A stretch of DNA of 64,000 nt from a virus: positions 110,137 to 174,136 of the IMG/VR virus record IMGVR_UViG_3300013102_000030; one strand, 5' to 3'. The position numbers and the translations under genes were made by a program. The first letter of the stretch is position 1; each line of letters begins with the position of its first letter. The notes under the pieces were generated by a model. The model made no database searches. It saw only the letters and a program-made list of their open reading frames with translations, and was not told the DNA's origin. Below are positions 2,176-42,809 of this stretch, piece after piece.

Positions 2176-2586
2176 ATGCAGCTTGCGTGGAGGGCATGCA
2201 AGGATCTTCTGCCCAACGATCCCAAAGTGATTGCGTTCCGACTCGGAAACGACCCTCGGGACTTTGAGCGGATTGACACTACCAAGACCATTGAGGAGAC
2301 CTTCCTTGAGAAGGTTCCCGATGAGTTCTACGGATGGGTGACCAAGCAAATTGACAGCATTGAAGACAATGTGTACAGTCTTACAGGTCAGGCAAAAGTC
2401 CTGATTGACAAGATTGCTGATGTCTCGGACAAGCGTGAGCGCTGGGAAATGGCCAAGGATCACCCGCTCTGCACTGAGATTCTGAGGGCTAAGAACTCTG
2501 AAGACCTCTCCGGATGCACCGTCTTGGCTTGGAAACTGTCCCGTCCGGGTGACGAGACTCCCTTCAAATCAAAGGAAGAAGACTAA
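2176..2586 (+). CDS. RNA ligase C-terminal domain, split off by in-frame TGA
   Basis: 136 residues, same frame as the upstream ligase part; the ATG follows the TGA directly. No separate ribosome-binding site is evident, so expression would need reinitiation or TGA readthrough. The helical, charged sequence fits the Rnl1-type C-terminal domain. At the junction (NARRI-stop-MQL) a tryptophan would fit, so TGG to TGA is the simplest origin. TGA is used as a normal stop elsewhere in the window (e.g. 4042). Confidence 0.7.
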   Translation: MQLAWRACKDLLPNDPKVIAFRLGNDPRDFERIDTTKTIEETFLEKVPDEFYGWVTKQIDSIEDNVYSLTGQAKVLIDKIADVSDKRERWEMAKDHPLCTEILRAKNSEDLSGCTVLAWKLSRPGDETPFKSKEED

Positions 2587-2587
2587 C

Positions 2588-3082
2588 TTGAAGAAACTGA
2601 TCATTGCCGGTATTGCCGTCGCAGCGCTCGCGCTCACTGGATGTGGGGCCTCCGGCAGTCGCGGCTTTGAGAGTGACGATTACGACTACGGCGGATACTC
2701 CAGCAATGGAGGATGGACCGACTCTGATTGGGACATGGACCGAACAACGGTCTATAACAACAACACGTACTGCCAAGGCGGAACGTACATGCCTCTGGCA
2801 AACAACCAGTACTCGTGCAACCGGAACGGAGTCGTCACGGCTCCTCTGGTCCGTCCCAAGCAGATCATACCTCCCAAGTCCCAGCAGAAGGCTCCTGCCG
2901 ACGTTCTGAAGCGAGTGGAGCAGCAGAAGGCTGAACGCCTGAAGCAGCGTCAGGAAGCTGCAAAGAAAGCTGAGCAGCAGAAGCAGCAACAACAATCACA
3001 GAAGAATGCCCCAGCGCAGAAGGCACCGGCTCCCGCCAAGCCTCCTGCTCCTGCAAAGGCTCCTCCTGCCAAATCCAAGTAG
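2588..3082 (+). CDS. Lipoprotein with Gln/Lys and Pro/Ala tail
   Basis: The TTG at 2588 follows AAAGGAAG and gives a clean lipoprotein signal peptide: MKK, a hydrophobic run and lipobox LTGC (acylated Cys near residue 19). The upstream ATG at 2549 lies inside the ligase and would put 13 charged residues before the signal. The mature protein has a Gly/Asp/Tyr-rich start, a Gln-Lys helical stretch (about 105-140) and an Ala-Pro-Lys tail like a wall-spanning linker. It should be a membrane-anchored, outward-facing protein; role unknown (exclusion or surface change are guesses). Confidence 0.8.
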   Translation: MKKLIIAGIAVAALALTGCGASGSRGFESDDYDYGGYSSNGGWTDSDWDMDRTTVYNNNTYCQGGTYMPLANNQYSCNRNGVVTAPLVRPKQIIPPKSQQKAPADVLKRVEQQKAERLKQRQEAAKKAEQQKQQQQSQKNAPAQKAPAPAKPPAPAKAPPAKSK

Positions 3083-23830: not shown

Positions 23831-24105
23831 TGATTCAACCCATGCTCCCGGCACTTCCACCAGCCATGAGCCACATCCCGGCCCGATCTCCTGAGTGGAA
23901 GAGCCACGAGAACATCGGCCATGCCAAGAACGCTGTCTCCCAGAAGGTACCACTGACCTCTTGGGGAAGCCGGAGGGCAGGCGCACTGTGTGACATGCAC
24001 ATCTTCGTCTTGGAAGATGGGCAGTATGTTCCCAAGTGGGTAATCCCTCAGGGAATGCAGTTCGCTGATCTTCCATGGAAGAACGAAAAGAAGCAACGCC
24101 CTTGA
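23827..24105 (+). CDS. Unknown small protein
   Basis: 92 residues starting MMIQPM at an ATGA overlap. Pro-rich start, then LCDMHIFVLEDGQYVPKWVIPQGM, suggesting a small strand-rich domain. Its stop lies within the -35 of the RNA promoter that follows. Confidence 0.6.
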   Translation: MMIQPMLPALPPAMSHIPARSPEWKSHENIGHAKNAVSQKVPLTSWGSRRAGALCDMHIFVLEDGQYVPKWVIPQGMQFADLPWKNEKKQRP

Positions 24106-24130
24106 CTTTCCAGTCGTGGTCCTGTAAAAT
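24102..24130 (+). promoter_or_regulatory. Promoter of a structured RNA
   Basis: TTGACT, 17 bases, TAAAAT: near consensus. No translatable start follows for over 150 bases. Confidence 0.8.
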
Positions 24131-24136
24131 GGATCA

Positions 24137-24247
24137 TGTTGGTAGCCAGTAAATCCCCTCCTAGTTTACTGGCGAACGATCCGGTTTGGTACCCGGATCG
24201 GGGAAGTCCCGCAGTTGTAGCCTTTGCTCCTGCGGGACTTCTTTTTT
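24137..24247 (+). ncRNA. Candidate structured small RNA ending in a terminator
   Basis: Three perfect hairpins in a row after the promoter: 24145-24153 with 24165-24173 (9 bp, C/T-rich loop), 24177-24184 with 24193-24200 (8 bp), and 24204-24214 with 24230-24240 (11 bp) followed by CTTTTTT. Together ~110 nt with no ORF. A phage regulatory RNA or a structured leader; terminator at the 3' end favours an independent RNA. No match to tRNA shape. Confidence 0.7.
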
Positions 24248-24288
24248 GACCAAAATCTCTAACAGAAACAACAAGTAAAGGATCTATC

Positions 24289-24539
24289 ATTTCCACTGCA
24301 ACCATCTCCGCTCCTGCTGCCACTGCCGATCAGGAAGTGCTGCACACCACGTCTGTAAGCTGGTAGCCAACACCAGCAACTGGCGCAAAGTCGCCAAGGA
24401 TCTCATCGGTGATGAGCCTGTGACGTACGCTGAGCGGTCCAAGAAGGACACCCTGAGGAAGTTCCCCATCATCAACATCTCCTCCTCCGACAAGGAAGCT
24501 CTGGATCGCGTGTTGACAAAGGCAGCAGAGGTCGAATAG
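24289..24539 (+). pseudogene. Frameshifted small gene with ATT/ATC start
   Basis: AAAGGA stands 6 bases before ATT 24289 (an ATC is at 24286); no ATG, GTG or TTG precedes the coding-like stretch STATISAPAATADQEV. That frame stops at 24366, but the -1 frame continues with LVANTSNWRKVAKDLI to a stop at 24539. One extra A near 24357 would join both into an ~83-residue basic protein. Either a one-base deletion, a sequencing error or frameshifting. Product unknown; DNA-binding style composition. Confidence 0.55.
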
Positions 24540-24542
24540 AGT

Positions 24543-31421: not shown

Positions 31422-31461
31422 AAGTGTATCGAAGTTACCAACGATTGAAGGAGGAGAAGTC

Positions 31462-31878
31462 ATGACGGAATGGATGGACAGGGAACCCAAGGCCGAAGAG
31501 CCTGAGGAGATCAAGCGGGACAGGTGGGGAGGTATCGTCGGTGCCACCAATGAAGTTCCCGGCATGGTCCGCTGGGTCTCTGGAGAGTCCCACTACTTCC
31601 TGAAGCACAACTCGCCCGGACGGCCCATCTTCGCTCTGGGGCTGGAGCACCGGATCGGAGACATGGCCTACATCTTTGACACGTCCATTGAGTTCGATGA
31701 CGACGAAGCTGTAGACCTGATCGACCGGATCGCCTCATTCCAAGACCTGCCCACGTACTCCGAACTGATGGATGTCAGCAGCAAGCTCAACGCTCTGCTG
31801 TTGGAGACCGAACGCATGGACCGGCCCGAGGACCGCTACTTCCGGGACAAGCTCCGGGACATTCTGGGCAAGTCATGA
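31462..31878 (+). CDS. Unknown acidic protein
   Basis: 138 residues; ATG 31462 after GAAGGAGGAGAAG. The longer in-frame ORF would start inside the promoter. Strand-rich middle (PGMVRWVSGESHYFL, AYIFDTSIEF) and charged helical end. Heads a run of overlapping genes to 33915. No family recognised. Confidence 0.7.
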   Translation: MTEWMDREPKAEEPEEIKRDRWGGIVGATNEVPGMVRWVSGESHYFLKHNSPGRPIFALGLEHRIGDMAYIFDTSIEFDDDEAVDLIDRIASFQDLPTYSELMDVSSKLNALLLETERMDRPEDRYFRDKLRDILGKS

Positions 31879-41334: not shown

Positions 41335-41370
41335 TTCATTACCAACAACCCGTTAGGAGAGGAGCTAGAC

Positions 41371-41823
41371 ATGAAGATCAGGCGCATGAAGGCCGGAGAC
41401 CGCAGCTACTACTTGGTGGACACCGGCACCGGAGAGATCATTGCCACCGCTGCACAGACCGGCGAACGCGGACGGGATGACTACCCGTGGGAATGGTCAC
41501 TCAGCAATGACATGATCTTCGGCAAGCTGAGCGCTCGGACTGGGCACAGTGTGGAGACGCTTCGGGAAGCCATTGACATTGTGGAGACCGGAGCCAACCA
41601 GTACGGACTGCTCAAGCCGGTCGGCCCTGTCGATCCGTTCGACATCAAGGAGAATCAGGTCTTCCGTGTCATGCAGGGCGGACGGTTCAACTACTACCGC
41701 TCCACGCAGAGCGCCTACGGGACCGGCTGGAACATCGAGATCCCTGCCAACCACTCCTCCGGTGAACTGACGGAAGTCCATCTCACTCGGGACCAGCACG
41801 TCACCTTGTACGAACCCATCTAA
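41371..41823 (+). CDS. Unknown two-domain protein
   Basis: 150 residues, ATG with GGAGAGGAG upstream. N-terminal strands (RSYYLVDTGTGEIIATA), helical middle, then PFDIKENQVFRVMQGGRFNYYRS, a barrel-like end. The C-terminal part ends with a beta hairpin. Unrecognised. Confidence 0.65.
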   Translation: MKIRRMKAGDRSYYLVDTGTGEIIATAAQTGERGRDDYPWEWSLSNDMIFGKLSARTGHSVETLREAIDIVETGANQYGLLKPVGPVDPFDIKENQVFRVMQGGRFNYYRSTQSAYGTGWNIEIPANHSSGELTEVHLTRDQHVTLYEPI

Positions 41824-42522: not shown

Positions 42523-42557
42523 ATCTATATCTTACCAACACCAATCAAGGAGAACTG

Positions 42558-42809
42558 ATGATCCAGAACAAGGGTGACAAAGTCAAGGTCATCTCGGGAC
42601 AGCACACAGGCAAGCGTGGGGTCGTTGACTCCTTCTGGCTGGAGATGTTCTGCCCTGACGGCAGGACGGTGGAAGTCGAACTGGACTCGGGCCAGATCGA
42701 AGCCTTCAAGCCGGAAGAGCTTGCAGAGGATCTGACCGAGGAGCAGGAAGCTCGCAAAGCTGAGTACGATGTGACACAGACCATTCTTGGATTCCCTGAG
42801 GAGGACTAA
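42558..42809 (+). CDS. KOW-like barrel protein
   Basis: 83 residues, ATG with AAGGAGAACTG upstream. NKGDKVKVISGQHTGKRGVV is very close to ribosomal L24/NusG-type KOW motifs; a short acidic helical tail follows. Possibly binds RNA or the ribosome (inference). Confidence 0.75.
   Translation: MIQNKGDKVKVISGQHTGKRGVVDSFWLEMFCPDGRTVEVELDSGQIEAFKPEELAEDLTEEQEARKAEYDVTQTILGFPEED

Follow-up and report, generated by a model that had tools for sequence, protein, structure and literature searches.

The window analysed here, a stretch of 64,000 nucleotides of viral DNA, covers positions 110,137 to 174,136 of IMG/VR record IMGVR_UViG_3300013102_000030 (174,136 bp in all). The nearest relatives of this virus are the ~194-kb Arthrobacter phages Racecar, Mimi, Talia1610 and Atuin, with terminases 77-82% identical. 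At 24138-24247 on the plus strand, the window carries an unannotated gene for a putative small RNA (sRNA) of ~110 nucleotides. By its sequence conservation this is a structured RNA family, present as one copy per phage with its own promoter, and its predicted unpaired segments have a statistically strong, strand-specific complementarity to the leaders of phage genes.

A conserved structured RNA gene

A sigma-70-type promoter lies on the plus strand at 24102-24130, where the -35 hexamer TTGACT (24102-24107), a spacer of 17 nucleotides and the -10 hexamer TAAAAT (24125-24130) match 10 of 12 consensus positions. In 7/7 aligned relatives the TTGAC of the -35 and a hexamer resembling the -10 are kept at the usual spacing. 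Since GTTGGTA begins 6-7 nucleotides 3' of the -10 in every relative examined, we place the start of the RNA at 24138, from where it would run through the end of the U-tract at 24247. All its elements lie on the plus strand. The unpaired 5' end, GUUGGUA (24138-24144, here called seed A), is identical in all copies. Stem-loop 1 of the predicted fold (24145-24173) is a perfect stem, GCCAGTAAA / TTTACTGGC (24145-24153/24165-24173), around the loop TCCCCTCCTAG (24154-24164, seed B), which resembles an anti-Shine-Dalgarno sequence and is rich in CUCC in every copy. Stem-loop 2 (24178-24199), GATCCGG-TTTGGTAC-CCGGATC, is also perfect (24178-24184/24193-24199). Stem-loop 3 (24203-24247), a putative intrinsic terminator, pairs 24203-24214 perfectly with 24230-24241, is followed by T6 at 24242-24247 and has a well-kept inner motif, CAG-UU-G(U)AGC ... 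GCUC-CUG. The predicted fold reaches -54.6 kcal/mol, compared with a mean of -31.5 for dinucleotide shuffles (z -6.9), and 0/200 shuffles were as good.

Copies of the RNA were sought by DNA similarity, pattern searches and covariance models (R1/R2). They were found in the same neighbourhood of Racecar, Mimi, Talia1610, Atuin and five IMG/VR contigs, each with its own promoter and terminator, and whole records yielded one significant covariance-model copy apiece (E 1e-14 to 1e-33). The RNA is present in 5/5 viral contigs with a terminase 62-80% identical and absent from those at 28-36%, and the covariance model finds no copy in Pumpernickel and Big4, which are related phages of Microbacterium. 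When 84,980 bacterial genomes were scanned for the pattern, 103 stretches were returned, and none of those inspected showed the structure; we judged them to be chance, as we did the weak covariance matches in DSL-LC01 (E 0.03-0.5) and at Atuin 150483 (E 0.33). Searches of the window with Rfam and for tRNAs gave no match to the RNA, and a literature search, thin on subscription journals, found no published description of it.

Across the 7 distinct sequences, 97.9% of the cells of the 35 pairs are paired, in an alignment built with a model of four of the seven and so leaning towards structure. Two-sided changes occur in 16 pairs (3/9 in stem 1, 3/7 in stem 2 and 9/12 outer pairs in stem 3, the latter 100% paired), compared with 5.8 in shuffles and 2-5 in slid registers, the slid registers being 32-49% paired. 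The assignment of stem 3 as a terminator rests on this covariation and on its conservation. A generic terminator scan found 14 where 16.7 were expected, not above chance, and did not list the terminator of the RNA, probably because its loop exceeds the limit of the scan. We rejected a coding reading, as a frame open in the window (37 codons from the ATG at 24136) is broken by stops or a shifting insertion in relatives and no ORF (open reading frame) is conserved. The initial annotation, which had described a near-consensus promoter followed by ~110 bases without an ORF but with three perfect stems, the last a terminator, is thus borne out, and conservation of the stems in relatives, the test it had named in advance, is seen in their covariation.

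Two features of the hairpins deserve mention in their own right. The loop of stem-loop 2, UUUGGUAC (24185-24192), is invariant in all copies though its stem covaries. It can form 6 bp with UACCAA, and it contains the self-complementary GUAC, so that dimerisation is possible. The inner motif of stem 3 (CAG-UU-GAGC ... GCUC-CUG) also appears, without the rest of the RNA, in an intergenic terminator hairpin of IMGVR_UViG_3300009408_000004 (2534-2603, minus strand), and is perhaps a recurrent terminator or protein-binding module.

Complementarity to the leaders of phage genes

In five genomes (Racecar, Atuin, UViG13102, UViG25728 and that of the window) we counted, without bias, all heptamers lying 12-60 nucleotides upstream of ORFs led by a Shine-Dalgarno (SD) sequence, with starts called by a simple heuristic rule. 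TACCAAC, in RNA the exact reverse complement of seed A, ranked 1, 1, 2, 1 and 3 in these genomes, respectively, and came first of 15,944 heptamers when the five were pooled (86 observed, 15.6 expected; z 17.8). The variant TATCAAC, which would pair by wobble, was raised 2.8-fold in the pooled count. The sense-strand GTTGGTA was not enriched upstream of genes, so the signal is strand-specific. This predicted contact of GUUGGUA with the top leader heptamer, absent from the initial annotation, is the strongest signal in the sequences. When every heptamer of the RNA was scanned for enrichment of its reverse complement in leaders, the main peaks were the 5' end and loop 1, both unpaired.

Each of the five genomes has about 13-18 exact UACCAAC leaders. 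The proteins encoded behind the 79 leaders fall into 64 families, and only 2 pairs are paralogues within one genome, so that gene duplication is no explanation for the motif. In the 36 cases where a good -10 is visible, it ends 5-7 nucleotides before TACCAAC, which would put UACCAAC at the 5' end of the mRNA, near +1. Phages without the RNA do not show UACCAAC to the degree of those that bear it; among replicons without the RNA, the counts for the motif are 0/3 in ArV1, 2/13 in DSL-LC01, 2/22 in Pumpernickel and 0/7 in Arthrobacter plasmids. The top heptamer of Big4, CACCAAA, was considered as a sign of an analogous system and rejected, as it showed no leader or RNA pattern.

The second contact is that of loop 1. 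The initial annotation had proposed that this C/T-rich loop could pair with ribosome-binding sites of the GGAGG type and make the RNA a trans-acting translational regulator. Loop 1 (CUCCUA/G) complements the unusual SD sequence UAGGAG(G) of the UACCAAC gene class, the phage's own gene set, and, together with the stem covariation, this lends support to the regulator proposed. Reverse complements of CCTCCTA and CTCCTAG are enriched before starts in the window's genome (z 6.3 and 8.1). Among the NAGGAG sites of four phages that bear the RNA, N is U in 28/90, 34/75, 19/61 and 32/93, compared with 1/28, 5/54 and 13/57 in Arthrobacter plasmids, Pumpernickel and Big4, which are without the RNA. In Atuin, where loop 1 reads CUCCUCA, NAGGAG shifts to GAGGAG (22 G vs 10 U; Fisher p 3e-7 vs the other four), and its loop would bind GAGGAGG (-12.7) better than UAGGAGG (-8.8). 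With UAGGAG so unusually frequent in these phages, the predicted fit of loop 1 is more than any anti-SD sequence would show. As isolated duplexes, loop 1 with its own sites gives about -12 to -15 kcal/mol and the 16S tail -10.2 with the same window-type site; seed A gives -7.4.

A mini-hairpin around the SD sequence, GUCC-UAGGA-GGAC, was also noted. Looking for hairpins of any kind at every GGA site proved too noisy and was dropped, and a stricter test of the mini-hairpin gave a moderate excess (10/90, 14/75, 6/61 and 8/93, with 3/68 in Atuin), the counts in phages without the RNA being 2/57 in Big4 and 0/54 in Pumpernickel.

Candidate targets and a proposed off-switch

The best predicted target leader within the window, UACCAACAACCCGUUAGGAG... 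(41340-41373, plus strand), precedes an ORF of 150 amino acids starting at 41371. It has UACCAAC at 41340-41346, TTAGGAG at 41353-41359 and a -10-like TAGTCT just upstream. Other candidate plus-strand leaders with UACCAAC lie at 42533-42560, before an ORF of 83 amino acids starting at 42558 (SD AAGGAG), and at 31436-31464, before one of 138 amino acids starting at 31462 (SD AAGGAGGAG). The leaders of the predicted targets are CA-rich. At 1-10 kb of the window's genome ~22 small genes follow one another, each apparently with its own promoter; ~19 have UAGGAG and about half have UACCAAC or a near variant. In the 20-kb terminal repeat of Racecar, which has the same genes annotated at both ends, ribosome-binding sites take forms such as GTCCTAGGAGGACACCATG, and TACCAAC occurs in leaders. 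The predicted targets, which the initial annotation had not named, appear to be the phage's own tandem small genes, not host genes; ten of them, compared with Pfam and PHROGs, matched families of unknown function only.

These tandem small genes (1-10 kb in the window's genome, 1-20 kb in Racecar) have further traits, namely an apparent promoter each, with the -10 region ATAGTCTTT, and a second class of leader, in which a GGTTC...GAACC hairpin precedes the UUAGGAG site, many sites lying in the GUCC-UAGGA-GGAC mini-hairpin. A repeated element, TAGTTACAAAACTTG, stands upstream of several genes in the Racecar terminal repeat.

Judged by sequence, the RNA has the features expected of a trans-acting sRNA. 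It forms an independent unit with its own promoter and terminator and no conserved ORF, and its conserved, unpaired seed has complements, beyond chance expectation, close to the starts of multiple unlinked mRNAs. We propose, with a probability of roughly two in three, that it is a phage-encoded trans-acting sRNA whose 5' end and loop 1 pair with UACCAAC and UAGGAG(G) of many phage mRNAs and repress their translation. The RNA would be transcribed independently, terminated intrinsically and accumulate during infection. Its free 5' end would capture UACCAAC at the 5' end of a target mRNA, loop 2 being a possible second capture site for this tag (6 bp), and loop 1 would mask the SD sequence of the same mRNA class. 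With the ribosome-binding site covered, the 30S subunit would be excluded and translation repressed. In this way one switch may serve a regulon of small genes, most of them standing in tandem in the terminal region of the genome, presumably an early one, together with some further genes. The RNA is probably a master off-switch for dozens of the virus's genes; we infer its transcription, its pairing, the repressive effect and the early timing of the targets from sequence. The bolder form of the proposal, in which one RNA shuts a whole viral gene class at one stage of infection through 5'-end to 5'-end pairing with separately promoted mRNAs tagged by UACCAAC and a matching SD sequence, we hold at even odds.

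Several observations weigh against translational repression in trans. Big4, without the RNA, has a small excess of UACCAAC (4/9, small numbers). Seed A never varies and therefore cannot show compensatory change; a shift of loop 1 together with the SD sequence is seen in Atuin, though the loop-by-site energies do not form a clean diagonal. As means over complete sets of leaders, the energies of loops on the sites of their own phage are not always the best, and the Racecar loop binds Atuin sites as well as Atuin's own does. In UViG13102 the loop ends in CUCCUAA, yet the commoner site is CUAGGAG. The match of loop 1 is partly forced, because any CCUCC fits SD sites, and the pairing of 6 bp with UACCAA explains the invariance of loop 2 only in part. 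Finally, the ORF starts are heuristic, and because the five genomes are related, the p-values overstate independence.

Other explanations must be set beside this one. UACCAAC could be a DNA-level signal at the +1 of phage promoters, where it would serve as an operator or initial transcribed sequence that a protein or RNA polymerase recognises, with the RNA gene bearing an inverted copy at its own +1 and no RNA-RNA pairing involved. Its fixed position 5-7 nucleotides after the -10, and that of GTTGGTA at the same place in the RNA gene, would suit such a signal. A promoter element leaves unexplained the recurrence of UUGGUA in mid-transcript, in loop 2; UACCAAC is strand-specific, and loop 1 independently fits the SD class of the same phages, with the matching shift in Atuin, so we consider a DNA signal unlikely. 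We think it equally unlikely that the RNA pairs with the leaders to activate the mRNAs or make them more stable, for instance by shielding the 5' end, or that the leaders serve as a sponge that takes up the RNA. Seed A would pair at the inferred 5' end of the mRNA, where protection against exonucleases could be conferred; on the other hand, pairing of loop 1 would cover the SD sequence, which is normally repressive.

A cis-acting 5' leader with a transcription attenuator, similar to a riboswitch, for the gene just downstream is brought to mind by the family of 58-75-amino-acid proteins found directly downstream in most copies. Atuin keeps the RNA although its next gene is unrelated, so that there is no fixed association with a single gene, which speaks against a cis leader. 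Inspection by eye, short of a systematic search, showed no alternative antiterminator pairing, and the complementarities in trans are genome-wide; we regard a cis role as improbable. A shade less probable still is a general anti-SD decoy, in which loop 1 would shut off host mRNAs through their GGAGG sites and leave those of the phage untouched. Loop 1 does resemble the CCUCC core of the 16S anti-SD, but the Racecar loop has a mean of -6.80 on phage sites vs -5.95 on genes of Arthrobacter plasmids, taken as a proxy for the host, where UAGGAG makes up 0.9% (9.7% in the phage) and seed A has no site ahead of genes (0/7). Host shutoff by choice of SD sequence predicted that phage SD sequences avoid the loop; the opposite was found, and we rejected it.

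Around the RNA gene, the downstream ORF (24285-24540), a homologue of Racecar gp205, appears 1 nucleotide short at about 24356 when set against relatives and is without ATG, GTG or TTG at the expected start, a defect that may stem from misassembly, decay of the gene or use of a rare start. A promoter-like TTGACA-18-TAGAGT lies inside its 3' end (24513-24542) and also occurs in locus L006. Elsewhere, Racecar genes 116-169 include >25 tRNA genes along with RNA ligases, a polynucleotide kinase and a tRNA nucleotidyltransferase, a large RNA-repair set.

Comparison with known systems

The closest parallel in an actinobacterial setting is the 6C/B11 sRNA (B11 in M. abscessus), which represses many mRNAs by pairing its C-rich hairpin loops with their G-rich ribosome-binding regions, as shown by compensatory mutations (PMC10470900); a pyrimidine loop is likewise predicted here to meet the ribosome-binding regions of many mRNAs. 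That sRNA is bacterial and chromosomal, with two C-run loops, whereas the present RNA is phage-borne and has a single pyrimidine loop plus a 5'-end seed. The Rfam covariance model of 6C gives no match in the window at the gathering score, and of the two C-run hairpin loops that mark the family only loop 1 is C/T-rich, loop 2 being UUUGGUAC. Among phage RNAs, c4 of P1/P7 prevents a phage mRNA from being translated by base-pairing at and around its ribosome-binding site, probably through complementary stretches located in loops (PMC12197685), and a like arrangement is proposed here. Unlike c4, which is described as controlling the ant mRNA, the present RNA has dozens of predicted targets across the genome. 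PreS of lambda and VpdS of VP882 are likewise phage-encoded and trans-acting, as we propose for this RNA; they depend on Hfq and are described mainly for host mRNAs and sRNAs, VpdS also affecting phage mRNAs (PMC12197685), whereas the present RNA is highly structured and is predicted to target mRNAs of the phage itself. GcvB is a multi-target sRNA that silences leaders bearing translation-enhancing ACA motifs (PMC3879156) and pairs just upstream of the SD sequence, as predicted for the present RNA, whose target leaders are likewise CA-rich. It is an enterobacterial host sRNA and has no sequence relation to the phage RNA.

To our knowledge, the phage sRNAs described so far mostly have one target gene or a few, or else regulate host mRNAs, and little work has been done on RNA regulation in phages of Gram-positive soil bacteria. 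With a conserved RNA and a two-part seed in a group that includes cultured phages (Racecar, Mimi, Talia1610 and Atuin), one can ask directly whether a single phage RNA times an entire class of genes, and how actinobacterial sRNAs act. The nearest likeness in strategy is to RegA of phage T4, a protein translational repressor that silences many early mRNAs at their ribosome-binding sites. In both cases a single phage factor would serve many early mRNAs, the factor being a protein in T4 and an RNA here. If our proposal is correct, this RNA would be the RNA counterpart of T4 RegA, and together with UACCAAC would form an address-tag system for viral mRNAs.
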